NCBI GenBank assembly: GCA_019359375.1
Contig: JAHHHL010000013.1
Coordinates: forward strand, 1 to 64,000
Length of the DNA: 64,000 nucleotides
Reading direction: 5' to 3'
Source of the DNA: Lyngbya sp. HA4199-MV5
GTDB lineage: Bacteria; Cyanobacteriota; Cyanobacteriia; Leptolyngbyales; Leptolyngbyaceae
Shown here: piece by piece, positions 29,467 to 35,200 of the stretch
Layout of the letters: each line of letters opens with the position of its first letter
Numbering within the stretch: the first letter of the stretch is position 1
Translations under genes and position numbers: made by a program
The notes under the pieces: model-generated
The model's database searches: none
Told to the model about the DNA's origin: nothing
The model's input: the letters and a program-made list of their open reading frames with translations, nothing else

Positions 29467-29785
29467 CTAAGGATCGCGAATTAAATAATCTGTGCTTTTG
29501 ACTTTGATGGTTCCTTTGATGACCGTTGCCTTACTGTTGTCTTTGGATGACTTTCGTTCAAGAATCGGTCTAATGACTTCTAGCTGTTGCTGCCATTCCT
29601 CTTCGGTTTTGGGTGGCGTAAACCAGGTTGCCTCAGAATCGGGACTGCGGCGGGCGAAGAAAGCTTCTAGCGCATCCAAATCGTCTCGATGTTGCAGAAT
29701 AAAGCTCTTAGTTCTGACCAGGACATTGCATCGTAGTTGGGCTTCATGCAAGAACCTCCAGATTTCATCACGTAACATTACAAAA
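29467..29785 (-). pseudogene. Frameshifted DUF6887-like gene with a DUF6888-like tail in front
   Basis: ATG 29747 starts MKPNYDAMSWSELRA exactly as in the paralogue at 30335-30550. One base is missing near 29700-29702, and the HRDDLDALEAFFARRSPDSE part continues in another frame that is open to 29467. In that other frame the upstream DNA reads LRDEIWRFLHEAQL, the tail of the DUF6888-like gene that normally overlaps the start. This is a degraded fourth copy of the module. The frame C-terminal to ERK also differs from its paralogues (DNSKATVIKGTIKVKSTDYL). Confidence 0.75.
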
Positions 29786-29792
29786 CAAACGC

Positions 29793-29996
29793 TTAGAGTT
29801 CTCCATTGAGCTTTTGTCGGAAGATTTCTTCCATCTGCTGTCTGCCTTCTTCTGTGTGAGGAAAGTCGTAGCCTGTGGAATTGGGGCGAGGTTTGCAGCG
29901 ACGGATAAATGTATGAAAGGCTTCTGAATCGTCCCGACGATCGAGAATGTAGGCTCTTAGCTCTGTCCAGGGCATTGTCTCAAAGTCAGGTTTCAT
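29793..29996 (-). CDS. DUF6887-like protein, diverged copy
   Basis: 67 residues: MKPDFETMPWTELRAYILDR, RDDSEAFHTFIRR, PHTEEGRQQMEEIFRQKL. It shares the MKPxxxxMxxxELRAYIL start and the P-x-TEE-x-QQ helix with the copies at 30335 and 31781, but the middle is different (shorter, RCKPRPNSTGYDF). The start ATG lies inside the tail of a DUF6888-like remnant. The family seems to occur only as small cyanobacterial modules; role unknown. Confidence 0.75.
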   Translation of the reverse strand: MKPDFETMPWTELRAYILDRRDDSEAFHTFIRRCKPRPNSTGYDFPHTEEGRQQMEEIFRQKLNGEL

Positions 29997-30110
29997 CGAT
30001 AAAATCCCACTTTCCTTGACGATCGATCATAATCTGAAGGTCTTCGCCAGCAAAAATATGAATGTCACCTGTAATGTCACTAAACCGAAAGCGATCAGCG
30101 TTCTCTCAAA
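29986..30110 (-). pseudogene. Truncated DUF6888-like gene
   Basis: A frame beginning directly after the HicB-like stop at 30111 reads FRFSDITGDIHIFAGEDLQI, then MIDRQGKWDFIDET and stop. This equals the C-terminal half of the DUF6888-like proteins at 30534 and 31993 (L-FRY, G-IYIF-S-E-QIVI-R-G-W). The N-terminal CQMLSNYYR part is missing. Confidence 0.7.
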
Positions 30111-30338
30111 TCAAGCAACCTGGAGTGGTTGTCCGAGGGTTTTTGGCTCTGGTAACGGTGTTCCTTCCTGTGATGCAGACTCAACTAGCAGTTCCAGCAC
30201 TTCTTGAGCGTTTTTGAGGGCTTCTTCGTAGGTGTCGCCATGCGTGACGGGCTGCATCACAGTGTCCTGAAATTCAGGTAAGGTGACGACAAAACATCGA
30301 TCGTCTTCTGACCATTGAATGATGACGGTGTATTTTAT
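30111..30338 (-). pseudogene. HicB-like gene whose ATG has become ATA
   Basis: The sequence is nearly identical to the HicB-like gene at 31557-31784 (KYTVIIQWSEDDRCFVVTLP, then FQDTVMQPVTHGDTYEEALK), 75 codons, intact to the stop. The start codon position reads ATA. In the sister copy the junction is ATGA, shared by the stop of the upstream gene (TGA) and the start (ATG). Here it is ATAA: the upstream stop is kept as TAA, but the start is lost. Translation would need an ATA start or reinitiation, so it is probably silent. Confidence 0.75.
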
Positions 30339-30550
30339 TCGTTCACTTTAGGCTTGCGTTCAAGAATCGGTCTCACCATTTCCATCTGTTGCTGCCATTC
30401 TTCTTCGGTTTTGGGTGGCGTAAACCAGGTTGCTTCAGAATCGGGACTGCGACGAGCATACAGAGCTTCTAACGCATCTAAATCATCTCGATGCGACAGG
30501 ATGTAAGCTCGGAGTTCTGACCAGGACATTGCATCATAGTTGGGCTTCAT
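30335..30550 (-). CDS. DUF6887-like protein, copy B
   Basis: 71 residues: MKPNYDAMSWSELRAYILSH, RDDLDALEALYARRSPDSEA, PPKTEEEWQQQMEMVRPILE. It is a close paralogue of the gene at 31781. Its start lies inside the end of the DUF6888-like copy B, and its stop overlaps the degenerate HicB start. No known catalytic motif. Small size, overlap and pairing suggest a toxin-antitoxin-like unit (inference). Confidence 0.82.
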   Translation of the reverse strand: MKPNYDAMSWSELRAYILSHRDDLDALEALYARRSPDSEATWFTPPKTEEEWQQQMEMVRPILERKPKVNE

Positions 30551-30725
30551 CTAAAAACCTCCAATCCCCGTCAGGGGGTATCACGATTTGAAGCTCGTCA
30601 CTGGCAAAAATGTAAATGATGCCTGAGTGTGCGTTGTAGCGGAATAGTTGGATGTCTCGATAATAGTTCGATAGCATCTGGCAAACACAGACGCTGGCAA
30701 AGTTTTGCTCAATAGTCGGTAGAAT
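30534..30725 (-). CDS. DUF6888-like protein, copy B, probable ATT start
   Basis: Read from ATT 30725: ILPTIEQNFASVCVCQMLSN, YYRDIQLFRYNAHSGIIYIF and a QIVIPPDGDW end, 63 codons. An in-frame TGA just upstream excludes a longer protein. There is no ATG or GTG before the conserved CQMLSN core. The sequence GAGGGG lies 6 bases before ATT, an ideal ribosome-site distance. Copy A shows the same ATT and the same GAGGGG. The stop lies 16 bases inside the DUF6887-like gene. Confidence 0.65.
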   Translation of the reverse strand: MLPTIEQNFASVCVCQMLSNYYRDIQLFRYNAHSGIIYIFASDELQIVIPPDGDWRFLDEAQL

Positions 30726-30771
30726 AGCTCACCCCTCAATTCTAATCCTGCCATTTTATCCTTCATCCCCC

Positions 30772-30832
30772 CTCTTACCTTTTACCTTTTGCCTTTTACC
30801 TTTTGCCTTTTGCCTTTTACCTTTTACCTTCA
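30772..30832. repeat. CCTTTTA/CCTTTTG heptamer run
   Basis: Eight tandem units with a 7-base period lie between the duplicated modules. Confidence 0.9.
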
Positions 30833-30897
30833 ACAATTTCCCACAGCGCATCAATCCCCGCTCCCACATATTCCTTATCCTGATGCAATGCTCTGAT

Positions 30898-31155
30898 CTA
30901 AGCAACGATCAATTCGTAGTGCAACGCTAAAATTTCATCGGCGTTCAAGATTGCCATTGCGTATTCTTGTCCGTTGGAATCGGCAAATTCAACAAGATAC
31001 TGAGGTTGTTCGGCTGCATACAGTTCAACGATGGTGCCGACTTGACCAATTGGCAACTCTGCGATCGCCTGGTATTCCGGTTCCACTAACGTCAATCGAT
31101 CGCGGGAAATGGGCTTCAGCGTTGCGACAACCTCGAAAAGTTTATAGTCTGTCAT
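30898..31155 (-). CDS. DUF4926 protein
   Basis: 85 residues: MTDYKLFEVVATLKPISRDR, GQVGTIVELYAAEQPQYLVE, FADSNGQEYAMAILNADEIL. These are the DUF4926 landmarks (G-x-VGTIVE-Y and FxDxxG-x-ya). It lies 6 bp downstream of the DUF6883 gene and is most likely its partner, probably the antitoxin-like half. An SH3-like barrel is expected from the pattern. Confidence 0.82.
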   Translation of the reverse strand: MTDYKLFEVVATLKPISRDRLTLVEPEYQAIAELPIGQVGTIVELYAAEQPQYLVEFADSNGQEYAMAILNADEILALHYELIVA

Positions 31156-31161
31156 AGTGAT

Positions 31162-31491
31162 TTACTTGATAAATGCAGAAATTAAGCGTGGATGAGGATT
31201 GGCTGTTGTAATTTCCCAAAGAGTACGAAGGATGAGTCCATCGCTTTCTGGTACTGCCCAGTCAACTTTGAACACCTGTCCAAACTCTGTAATGTTTTGC
31301 TGAACCACCTCGCCTTCGATCGCAGCCCTCTGAATCAATTCTCGTAGATCATCGGCATTTTCAGCCGTGATACCTAACGCAGACGCAAACACTCTTGCTT
31401 TATGTTTTCCAGACTGATGTTCTGGATTGAGACAATAACCAATTAGCTTTTGCAAGGGAACATCAGCCCGATCGCCCTCCGGTAACTTCAT
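31162..31491 (-). CDS. DUF6883 protein
   Basis: 109 residues: KLIGYCLNPEHQSGKHKARV, FASALGITAENADDLRELIQ and FGQVFKVDWAVPESDG. The LNPxHxxGKHKARVF block is the hallmark, with conserved histidines and basic residues that could be catalytic. In other genomes this domain sits at the C-terminus of secreted toxins or next to DUF4926. A toxin-like role with DUF4926 as immunity or antitoxin is inferred. Confidence 0.82.
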   Translation of the reverse strand: MKLPEGDRADVPLQKLIGYCLNPEHQSGKHKARVFASALGITAENADDLRELIQRAAIEGEVVQQNITEFGQVFKVDWAVPESDGLILRTLWEITTANPHPRLISAFIK

Positions 31492-31556
31492 CCTTCATCC
31501 TTCATCCTTTAGCCTTCTCCTTCCACTATCTCCCACAGCGCATCAATCCCTAGAGT

Positions 31557-31784
31557 TTACGCAACCTGGAGTGGTTGTCCGAGCGTTTTGGGTTCTGGTA
31601 ATGGTGTTCCTTCCTCTGACGCAGACTCAACTAACAGTTCCAGTACCTCTTGAGCGTTTTTGAGGGCTTCTTCGTAGGTGTCGCCATGCGTGACGTGCTG
31701 CATCACAGTATCCTGAAATTCAGGTAAGGTGACGACAAAACATTGATCGTCTTTTGACCATTGAATAATGACGGTGTATTTCAT
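31557..31784 (-). CDS. HicB-like antitoxin without HicA
   Basis: 75 residues: MKYTVIIQWSKDDQCFVVTL, HVTHGDTYEEALKNAQEVLE and a short C-terminal tail (PLPEPKTLGQPLQVA). It is the partially degraded RNase-H-like HicB domain. The usual HicA (double-stranded RNA-binding toxin) is absent. Instead the gene follows DUF6887 with an ATGA overlap, so the three-gene order DUF6888-DUF6887-HicB may be the functional unit. Confidence 0.87.
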   Translation of the reverse strand: MKYTVIIQWSKDDQCFVVTLPEFQDTVMQHVTHGDTYEEALKNAQEVLELLVESASEEGTPLPEPKTLGQPLQVA

Positions 31785-31996
31785 TCGTTCTCTTTAGATC
31801 GCCGCTCAAGAAACGGTCTGGCGATTTCTAACTGTTGCTGCCATTCCTCTTCTGTTTTGGGTGGAGGGAAGAGGATTGCATCGGCATCAGGGCTACGACG
31901 CTGGAAGAAAGCCTCGATCGCATCCACATCATGACGGTTTTCTAGGATGTAGGCTCTCAGTTCAGTTTTTGTCATGGCATCGTAATTTGGTTTCAT
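31781..31996 (-). CDS. DUF6887-like protein, copy A
   Basis: 71 residues: MKPNYDAMTKTELRAYILEN, RHDVDAIEAFFQRRSPDADA and PPKTEEEWQQQLEIARPFLE. It overlaps the DUF6888-like gene in front (ATGA) and the HicB-like gene behind (ATGA). This copy is intact in all three genes and gives the template for judging the decayed copies downstream. Confidence 0.83.
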   Translation of the reverse strand: MKPNYDAMTKTELRAYILENRHDVDAIEAFFQRRSPDADAILFPPPKTEEEWQQQLEIARPFLERRSKENE

Positions 31997-32169
31997 ACGT
32001 ACCTCCAGGTTCCATCACGGTAAATCACAATTTGAATCTCGTCGCTTACAAAAATGTAGATTTCGCCGCTGCGATCGCTATACCGAAAAAGTTCAACATT
32101 GCGATAGCAGTTTGATAGCATTTGACAAACGCGGATACACGCAAAGCCCTGTGCAGCAGTTGGTAAAAT
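31993..32169 (-). CDS. DUF6888-like protein, copy A, probable ATT start
   Basis: 58 codons from ATT 32169: ILPTAAQGFACIRVCQMLSN, CYRNVELFRYSDRSGEIYIF, VSDEIQIVIYRDGTWRYV. A TGA two codons upstream blocks extension, and the first in-frame ATG is inside the conserved core. GAGGGG lies 6 bases before the ATT. The last four bases overlap the ATG of DUF6887 copy A. The strands and the GEIYIF core suggest a small beta-rich protein. Confidence 0.68.
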   Translation of the reverse strand: MLPTAAQGFACIRVCQMLSNCYRNVELFRYSDRSGEIYIFVSDEIQIVIYRDGTWRYV

Positions 32170-32234
32170 GGCTCACCCCTCAATTCTAGTCCCACCATTT
32201 TATCCTTCATCCTTTAGCCTTCATCCCTCATCCC

Positions 32235-35200
32235 TCATCCCTTCCCCTCCACTATCTCCCACAGCGCATCAATCCCCGCTCCCACACACTCCTCATCCTG
32301 ATGCTGCTCAATCCACTGAACGATCGCAGGCTCAACCAAGCCATTTTTTTTGCCTAGATTACTCAAGACCGCACTTGTATGAGAGCGAATGACATAGTCT
32401 GAGTGTTCGAGCAGAGCTAAAAGAGTTTTTAATACCTCACTTGAAATATTACTCATGCCTCCTAACCTTTCACACGCGCTGTAGCTTATAGAGTAGTTTT
32501 CGTGCGTGAGGAATTCTAAAAGTTCTTTTATTTCAGGGTTAGATTCTAATTTGAATTTAGAGGCTAAACCTAAGTTTCTTAACACCATACTCGTGCAGAA
32601 TTGTACACCTAGATCCTTATCATCAAGTTTTGCCAAAAGTTCTTGAAGTACTATGTTAGATTTATTGCCTAATTCACCCAACGCTACTACAGCTTCAGCA
32701 CGTATATCAGAATTTTCATCCTTTAATAAAGTTATTAAGGCTTGTGCTGCCTGATCAGATGCATCGTTAAAGCTACCTAGAGTATGAATTGCTTTAGAAC
32801 GCACATCACTATTTTTATCGTTGAGCAAAGCTGTCAGCGCCTGTGAGATATCGCTTGAAGTCTCACCTAAATGTGTCAAAGTATGAGCTGCCATTACGCG
32901 CACATTTGAATCATCATCAGCGATTAGTCGCCTAAGCGATTGCACTATAGAATTTGATAATTTTGTGGGAATGTCTGGGCTTCTGAAGACACAAAGCACA
33001 TCTGCTGCCTTAGAGCGTACATTAGCGTCACTGTTTTTAGTCAGTTCTATCCAATACTCGATCTCTTTTTCTTCTCCTAGAACCCCTCGATATTTGCATA
33101 ATCGGTACTCATGAATAAGTTTAGACTGATTATTTAAAGCTTGTAGAGCTATATTTTCAAATGTTGTTCCGCCTAAATTACAAATGACATATGAAACTTG
33201 GCTTCTAACTCTTGAGCTAGCTGTTTTCAAGATATTTATTTCAAGCTTAAGCAATTGCTCAAGAATCTCTGACGCAAGATCGAAATCTGCTCCTTGTAGT
33301 CCCTTTGGATCTTCGGCGAGACAACGACCTGCAAACAATACATCGCGGTGGAGCCATTGCTCGTAAGGACTATTGGCATTGAGAATCTTACGGATGGCTC
33401 TCGCGGCTTTTTTAGGGCTTTGTTGGGCGATAAGGAGGAGCAACACTTCGCGCCAGTGGGGGTCGTGGAGGTGTTGCTCGATGTGCGTGAGGACAATCGC
33501 GAAGTCGTCTTCGTTGTCTGCCTGGTAGTTGATGTCTTGCGCGGTGAGGTATTCCTGAAAGGTTTTGTGGACAAAGGCGTAGCAGTCCTGTCCCTGTTCG
33601 TTGAGGAGTCCGGTTCTGTCGCGGATGAACCTCACAAACCGTTCGGCTTCTGCTTTCGCTTCGTAGTGCTGGAGTTGTTTAAGCGTTTTGATTTCCTGGC
33701 AGAGTTTTTGGATGAGTTCGTCTTTGTCGATGAGGGTGCCGCCTTCGCGATCGCCCGTGTTGCCCTGCGTGTGAATCCAGTTGGCGAGGCTTTCCATCAA
33801 CCGTCGCAGGTCGTCCAGTTGCAGGTATTTGAGCACCGTCTGATTGCTCAGTTCTTTGTTGTCATCCCAGGCGGTGAGCAGCGTTTCCACCGCTTTGTCG
33901 TAGAGTTTGTAGCGTTCGCGGGGCAGTCGTGCCTGATAGCGATGAATCAGGGCAATGATCGTCAGCAGCAACGGATTCCGCGCCAACAATTTAATCCGAT
34001 CCTGCTGATTCAACGCCTTTTGCAAACTCTCTTTGCGTCGCTGCGCTTCTGCGGTGTCCTGTATCCGACTCCGATACCACCGATCGCAAAACTCCTCAAT
34101 TTTCCCATCATCAAACGGCTGCAACTCGTAGTGCGGAAACTCTTCGGTGCGGAAAAAGTCGCGCTTGTAGCCAGCAGGACGCGAGGTAATGATGGCGCGA
34201 TTCAGCGGATACTGTCCCAAAAAGTTTTCGATGCACTGCACCAGATGGTAGCGCTTCGCTTCTTCTGCCACTTCGTCTAACCCATCCAGGAGAATGAGCG
34301 CCCGTCCATTGTTCAGCCAGTGTTCAAAGAATCCCTTTGGCAACGGCTTGCAGGACATCGTGGTTTCCGCAAACTGCCGCGCATACTCAGGCAGCGTGAC
34401 ATCCGGCGTTCGTGCCCAATCCCGAATGCGAATCAAAATCGGCAGCAGCAATGCGTCTGCATCGGTCTGCAATGCCAATGGATCGAGTCGCAATCCTTCT
34501 GTATTCGGAACCATTCGAGTTCGATCGCGCTGCATTTGAGATCGATCGCGATCGCTTCCTTCTGCATCGTGATCGATTCGAGTTTGATCGCGATCGGTTC
34601 CTTCTGCATGGGCATCAATTCCTTCTGTATCCGGAACCATTCGAGGTTGATGCTTGAAATCTTGATCCCCCCTAGCCCCCCTTAAAAAGGGGGGAGTTTC
34701 TGAAGCCCCCTTTTTAAGGGGGTTGGGGGATCTCTCCTGCATCAGCCCTTCTGCATGTACATCGCTTGCATATGCGATCGCTCCCTGTTGCTCCGCCAAC
34801 GCCACCGCAAAGAAACTCATCAGCGTCGTTTTACCCGAACCCGGTGCGCCCAACAGCACAATCTTCTTCTGATGCTGATTAAGCAGTTGCCGCGCCGAAA
34901 ACTTGCGACCCGATCGCTCCAACTGCGCTCTCCACCGCTGCTCCTGCAAAAGCTCCCCCTGCCTCCCCTGCTCCCCCTGCTCCTCAAACAACGATCGCTC
35001 AAATGCCAGCCGCGATCGCCCTCCTCCATCCTCCTCTACATCCGGCATCACAAAGATCTGCGCCAAGCGTTCGGCTCGTTCCACGTCCTGTCCCGGCACC
35101 GCCACACCTGCAAACTTCACATCATCAAACCAGTTGGCGAGTTGTTTGAGATAATTTGCCTTTGCCACCTGAAAGCGAATCGCGGTAATGGCATCAAAGT

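Follow-up and report, generated by a model that had tools for sequence, protein, structure and literature searches.

Type II toxin-antitoxin modules in which the toxin gene comes first include HicAB, BrnTA and HigBA. Another two-gene arrangement is the sigma factor/antisigma factor pair sigR-rsrA of Streptomyces, for which it has been described (PMC5472188) that a non-canonical start codon on the first gene helps keep the partner in excess through translation initiation factor 3 (IF3). Here we consider a 64,000-nucleotide window (contig JAHHHL010000013.1 of assembly GCA_019359375.1, positions 1 to 64,000, forward strand) from the cyanobacterium Lyngbya sp. HA4199-MV5, in which two DUF6888-DUF6887-hicB units (copies A and B) and two decayed remnants (copies C and D), all on the minus strand, occupy positions 29467-32169 (Table 1). 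Like the toxin-first modules, DUF6888 and DUF6887 are small overlapping or tightly spaced genes with a patchy, multi-copy distribution, in which the effector-like gene is not kept without its partner and the antitoxin-like gene is often solitary. Unlike them, neither family resembles a known toxin or antitoxin in sequence or, among the folds listed, significantly in structure, and DUF6888, the first gene, often appears to start at AUU. In our judgment there is about an even chance that DUF6888-DUF6887 is a toxin-antitoxin-like pair whose first member is throttled by a near-cognate start codon.

The conserved unit is the DUF6888-DUF6887 pair and not the triplet with hicB. In a sample of 117 cyanobacterial genomes, drawn evenly across the phylum, DUF6888 was matched in 24 (23 above the Pfam cut-off) and DUF6887 in 26, and all 24 carry both; the genome of the window itself has nine DUF6888 matches, of which the ninth is the remnant in copy C and falls below the cut-off, and 18 DUF6887 matches. 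Every listed place of either family in the sample, the window included, was rescanned with custom-built profiles, yielding 95 clusters with copies C and D counted as one; genes were called intact if they covered model positions 4 to 50 or better (DUF6888) or 5 to 37 or better (DUF6887). All 52 intact DUF6888 genes have an intact DUF6887 directly downstream, none being without such a neighbor, and 29 of the 81 intact DUF6887 genes lack an intact DUF6888, which is broken in 11 cases and absent in 18; the 14 remaining clusters have no intact member. Hence DUF6888 is not kept without DUF6887, as is the rule for a type II toxin and its antitoxin, and the paired loci also share with such modules a fixed order (DUF6888 followed by DUF6887) with overlap or tight spacing. 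This computed asymmetry of decay is as expected of an effector (DUF6888) and its inhibitor (DUF6887). The one DUF6888 found alone with a model coverage of 4-48 (locus L159; L numbers are our handles for loci) is, by eye, degenerate at both ends.

A second, biased set of 79 named loci was obtained with one motif of the window's subfamily (best 80 of 97 matches), and in it DUF6887 adjoins DUF6888 in 82 of 85 cases; in L221 both genes are damaged. Eighteen solitary DUF6887 genes (17 intact and one partial, with L252-L254 left out) were scored for remains of DUF6888, and five retain a clear scrap of its C-terminus ahead of their start, with p values that are conservative because the null includes real DUF6888-DUF6887 junctions. 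By eye, the solitary genes have no common upstream partner family.

Several variants of the pair were also encountered. A second array, in Leptolyngbyaceae cyanobacterium SM1_4_3 (L172, 600-4460), has four DUF6887 genes with three full and two truncated DUF6888 genes, and one of these DUF6888 genes is separated from its DUF6887 by two genes, with a protein that by eye is HNH-like. At L251 (3303-3651) DUF6888 (model 1-48) and DUF6887 (model 15-52) share one open frame, apparently through a deletion fusion. L125 and L127 encode proteins of about 180 residues headed by DUF6887, with an extra C-terminal part that is alike in both and had no Pfam match in the one tested.

The second line of evidence concerns the start of DUF6888. 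Neither copy A nor copy B offers an ATG, GTG or TTG at the conserved N-terminus; instead an in-frame TGA is followed, after one codon, by ATT (32169 and 30725, respectively), a leucine codon and a Pro-Thr motif, and with a properly spaced ribosome site ahead of it both genes seem to start at this AUU. Relatives have ATG, TTG, GTG or ATT, ATA, ATC at the same place. We classified starts by the codon within five of the Pro-Thr motif, using AUH for AUU, AUA and AUC. Among 52 DUF6888 genes of the sample (A and B included) there are 28 canonical, 22 AUH and two other starts, and among 84 genes of the window-like named set 64 AUH, 19 canonical and one other. The AUH class spans many named families and may be undercounted, because in L183, L184 and L210, which were called canonical, the same ATT and leader occur with a GTG placed two codons ahead of the ATT. 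No ATG, GTG or TTG at all lies between the upstream stop and the Pro-Thr motif in 19/52 and 41/84 genes, respectively. Shine-Dalgarno-like words precede the AUH starts in 17 of 22 sampled and 62 of 64 named genes (79/86 together), as against 9/28 and 3/19 of the canonical starts (Fisher p 0.002 and 3e-12, without correction for relatedness), and of the 73 AUH genes that have a GAGG, 63 carry it 7 or 8 nucleotides from the AUH codon. In the same loci DUF6887 starts with ATG in 70/76 (sample) and 87/88 (named) cases, with Shine-Dalgarno-like words in 60/76 and 61/88; neither these genomes in general nor the method can therefore account for the AUH finding. By title or abstract opening, the open literature yielded no such family in a search for AUU start codons with cyanobacteria or toxins.

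As a separate observation, L185, L195, L207, L232 and others share TATGTCACAATTGAGGAA ahead of the near-cognate start, a recurrence that reaches far past the ribosome site and may reflect a promoter or operator.

We propose that DUF6888 (about 58 residues, predicted as a helix and four strands) would be an effector that does harm or imposes a cost in the absence of its partner, and that DUF6887, with its helical N-terminal core and long, variable C-terminal part, would be its keeper. In many members translation of DUF6888 would start at AUU, AUA or AUC behind a good Shine-Dalgarno site, with IF3 keeping this initiation weak, and DUF6887 would use an AUG that mostly follows a Shine-Dalgarno-like word close to the DUF6888 end; from the weak start of the one and the strong start of the other it would follow that the keeper is made in excess. 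If IF3 restrains the AUU while the AUG-initiated keeper is in excess, then conditions under which IF3 discriminates less well, or ribosomes are less accurate, would shift the balance of the two proteins. The toxicity, the complex formation or binding, the initiation at AUU in the cell and the control by IF3 are what we infer from these genes. The closest documented logic would appear to be that of sigR-rsrA, which likewise combines a non-canonical start on the first gene with a partner that has its own ribosome site; as described there, however, sigR uses GTC and not AUU, the proteins are a sigma and an antisigma factor, it is a single pair in contrast to the multi-copy DUF6888-DUF6887 family, and IF3 control has been shown, whereas for DUF6888 it is our proposal (PMC5472188). 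The AUU codon itself recalls Escherichia coli infC, which is reported to start at ATT (PMC5472188), but infC encodes IF3 itself and is autoregulated. It is possible, though we hold it doubtful, that the pair represents an unrecognized addiction-like family whose effector is throttled, via IF3, by a built-in near-cognate start that many cyanobacterial families have kept.

If the proposal is correct, dozens of cyanobacterial genes may be missed or called too short, because gene finders are described as assuming ATG, GTG or TTG (PMC5472188). Two unnamed Pfam families would gain a concrete hypothesis, and start-codon choice, besides binding strength, would become testable as a setter of the effector-to-inhibitor ratio in small gene pairs. 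To our knowledge, this could then be the largest bacterial gene family dependent on AUU, AUA or AUC initiation.

Certain observations weigh against a throttled toxin-antitoxin-like pair. In two named loci, L182 and L223, a DUF6888 domain spanning the full model occurs with no DUF6887 beside it, and 13 of the 18 solitary DUF6887 genes have no clear DUF6888 scrap. In four genomes that carry six or seven pairs apiece, the distances among DUF6888 paralogues rise with those among DUF6887 paralogues (r 0.40, 72 comparisons, a value reached in 5 of 5000 permutations); this favors the pair, but linkage alone could cause such co-divergence of neighboring genes. The start-class counts are not independent, because genes of one class group together on a tree of 126 proteins, itself poorly resolved (12 changes against a shuffled mean of 38.3, with starred branches forcing at least four). 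The AUU is not essential to the unit, because 28 of the 52 sampled DUF6888 genes start canonically, and AUU-based IF3 feedback is not evident, because infC of the window's own genome offers an ATG close to where it should begin. Lastly, among the folds listed neither predicted structure significantly matches a solved toxin or antitoxin.

These predictions bear on the main rival, a two-protein regulator in which DUF6888 binds nucleic acid, DUF6887 modulates it and the start codon sets their ratio as in SigR-RsrA. DUF6888 is confidently modeled (mean predicted local distance difference test score, pLDDT, 93.3) and has no Foldseek match at E 0.001; its best structural row, a middling one that favors a regulator, is the DNA-binding domain of T4 MotA (Z 6.2, root-mean-square deviation 1.7 over 56 residues), and the N-terminal domain of RnlA is found among unrelated rows (TMq 0.61, Z 4.5-4.8), but Z values under 8, in which range both rows fall, may reflect a mere common arrangement. 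DUF6887 is predicted with helices at 10-19 and 24-32 and a long C-terminal helix at 49-70 (mean pLDDT 82.7, predicted template modeling score 0.47), and its structure search gave one match, at E 4.9. By sequence, no solved structure was found for DUF6888 up to E 10, and the rows for DUF6887 were at chance level only. The documented logic of sigR-rsrA (PMC5472188), with the non-canonical start on the first gene and an excess partner from its own ribosome site, would suit a regulator too. The patchiness (24 of 117 genomes), the multiplicity in the window's genome and the frequent decay nevertheless fit addiction or conflict modules better, and we regard a regulator as unlikely. Five small proteins of the window matched neither the PADLOC defense-system models nor NCBIfam. 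A single-protein search with DUF6888 confirmed no relative in viral contigs, and DUF6888 had no match in phages at E 0.01; two plasmid records match DUF6888 and four match DUF6887. In the open literature searched, a scope outside which most subscription journals fall, no paper names either family.

The throttled-pair proposal would lose its start codon if translation of DUF6888 began at an internal ATG or did not occur, the AUU being an ordinary isoleucine codon or leader DNA. The window's subfamily does have such an ATG, some 14 codons past Pro-Thr as part of the conserved VCQMLSN motif, and the plain list of open reading frames begins there. However, the stretch ahead of it changes in coding fashion: in the first 14 codons from Pro-Thr, 78% of the single-base codon differences are synonymous in frame, compared to 20% and 14% in the other frames (74 distinct sequences obtained from 88 AUH rows with a four-codon cut), and in the 24 nucleotides upstream the same 74 sequences have no codon periodicity. 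Codon-type substitution begins at the near-cognate codon. Moreover, relatives with a good ATG or TTG place it at the same position, and an upstream canonical start is excluded in 27 of 86 AUH genes, which have a stop within 12 codons and none of ATG, GTG or TTG ahead of Pro-Thr. We accordingly consider internal or absent translation improbable.

The array itself was originally predicted to be a series of duplication and loss of a three-gene unit. Its description stands: copy A is intact with two ATGA overlaps and Pfam matches for all three genes, copy B retains DUF6888 and DUF6887 with the start codon of hicB replaced by ATA, and C and D are decayed, C in its DUF6888 and D in a frameshifted DUF6887 that shares one open frame with a DUF6888 tail (by eye). 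By the curated Pfam cut-offs (27 bits for PF21828, 24.2 for PF21826 and 27 for PF15919) DUF6888 is recognized in A and B and DUF6887 in all four copies. The simple series does not survive, as other genes are interspersed and A and B are mosaic. The leaders before DUF6888 in A and B are identical at 39 of 43 positions and their hicB genes at 54-57 of 60 per block of an end-to-end alignment (90-95%), and the DUF6888 and DUF6887 blocks lying between are about 62-80% identical with saturated synonymous sites (28.8 changes over 36.8 sites in DUF6888, 33.7 over 44.3 in DUF6887). For hicB the synonymous divergence (dS) is 0.255 and the nonsynonymous divergence (dN) 0.024, with 4 of 74 later residues differing. 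A conserved leader and hicB around a saturated core are not accounted for by duplication and drift alone, and a plain tandem duplication of A and B is ruled out by these dS values; the sequences suggest that either the pair was swapped between conserved flanks or the flanks were homogenized. That the array arose by simple tandem duplication and neutral loss, its decaying genes having no present function, agrees with the partly broken C and D and the missing ATG of hicB in B, but DUF6888 and DUF6887 are still intact in A and B, and together with the mosaic this makes it quite improbable.

HicB is a local passenger of the pair. The original prediction had treated the three genes as one toxin-antitoxin-like system in which a DUF replaces HicA; what remains of it are the small overlapping genes that multiply and decay and the dependence of DUF6888 on DUF6887. 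A search for the gene order in cyanobacteria found window-type HicB within 1 kb downstream at only 10 of 178 DUF6888/DUF6887 clusters, two in the window and eight in Nostoc and kin (sample and named set mixed; HicB of other types would be missed), so that the triplet, as distinct from the pair, rarely recurs, and a conserved three-gene unit is rejected. Replacement of HicA is likewise rejected on the strength of loci, HicA being named by eye, in which hicA lies between DUF6887 and hicB, intact in L232 (DUF6888-DUF6887-hicA-hicB) and broken in L185. Further, also by eye, a broken hicA lies between two hicB genes in L195, an intact hicA-hicB directly upstream of the pair in L192, and DUF2281-like and RelE-like genes between the pair and hicB in L206. 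Elsewhere the third gene is unrelated: in L126 (3519-4201) and L128 (3479-4158) a DUF6887 with a longer C-terminus overlaps a ParE-family toxin gene, giving DUF6888-DUF6887-ParE, and the place is taken by a Uma2-like gene in L098, an RlmN-like gene in L103 (both by eye) and a HicB of another type (UPF0150) in L092. The locus resembles HicAB (PF07927/PF15919) in having hicB twice, with a match to the HicB-like antitoxin family, but differs in that HicB stands outside the conserved pair and no hicA adjoins it; PF07927 has no match within the window at E 1e-3, and its sole match on the contig, at 90290, lies outside the window. Solitary HicB is common in this genome, because 8 of its 16 HicB-like matches (13 above the cut-off) lack an adjoining HicA match and 8 have one, as compared by eye. 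The hicB genes would be leftovers of a neighboring hicAB module. Joint action of DUF6888, DUF6887 and HicB, for which the tight overlaps in copy A and the strong conservation of hicB between A and B could speak, is very improbable in view of the few co-occurrences, the intervening hicA genes and the unrelated third genes.

Table 1. Features of the DUF6888-DUF6887 array and its surroundings (positions in the window)
Feature	Position (strand)	Evidence and remarks
NACHT-HEAT (NNH2) gene, 1118 residues	32235..35591 (-)	Pfam NNH2, NACHT, HEAT; directly upstream of copy A
Original NACHT gene 3' tail (ALWEIVEG...)	32242-32304	Inside NACHT-HEAT gene
Copy A Shine-Dalgarno-like GAGGGG	32176..32181 (-)	From sequence; GAGG ends 8 nucleotides 5' of ATT
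Copy A DUF6888, 58 residues from ATT 32169-32167	31993..32169 (-)	Pfam PF21828, 83.2 bits, 1.1e-23
Copy A DUF6887, 71 residues	31781..31996 (-)	Pfam PF21826, 67 bits, 1.9e-18; ATGA overlap with DUF6888
Copy A hicB, 75 residues	31557..31784 (-)	PF15919 HicB_lk_antitox, 34.2 bits, 3.2e-8; ATGA overlap with DUF6887; no hicA
Second copy of NACHT gene 3' tail with short tandem repeat	31486..31550 (-)	Repeat family D4; in front of DUF6883
DUF6883, 109 residues	31162..31491 (-)	Pfam PF21814, 83.3 bits
DUF4926, 85 residues	30898..31155 (-)	Pfam PF16277, 48.9 bits; adjoins DUF6883
Third copy of NACHT gene 3' tail	30824..30886 (-)	Repeat families D4, D7, alignment; in front of copy B
Copy B DUF6888, 63 residues from ATT 30725-30723	30534..30725 (-)	PF21828, 83.6 bits, 8.3e-24
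Copy B DUF6887, 71 residues	30335..30550 (-)	PF21826, 68.8 bits, 4.9e-19; overlaps DUF6888
Copy B hicB	30111..30338 (-)	ATA where copy A has ATG; all 75 codons otherwise open
Copy C DUF6888 remnant (last half)	30004..30090 (-)	Model 27-55, 24.4 bits, below Pfam cut-off 27
Copy C DUF6887, intact, 67 residues	29793..29996 (-)	PF21826, 72.4 bits, 3.7e-20
Copy D frameshifted DUF6887, 103-residue open frame	29467..29778 (-)	PF21826, 37.3 bits, 3.5e-9, model 13-56 only

Read along the minus strand, copy A is followed by the DUF6883-DUF4926 genes and then by copies B, C and D, and in copy A a GGAGG within the last DUF6888 codons precedes DUF6887. The array would appear to sit in an accretion site of small modules behind the NACHT-HEAT gene. 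A NACHT-HEAT gene upstream of the pair was seen in the window and in L185, L186, L192, L195, L237 and L244, all from Nostoc and kin, and this linkage is therefore not general. A DNA search of the same genome with the A-B block (40 of 372 first-look candidates scored) gave 45 further places besides the block itself and copy D, nearly all of them in the short repeat and none spanning the first 33 bases of the tail. Behind each of the three NACHT-HEAT 3' tails come a short tandem repeat and a small gene pair, an arrangement suggesting that modules were added there, and the DUF6883-DUF4926 genes between A and B are a candidate second pair of toxin-antitoxin-like or toxin-immunity type.

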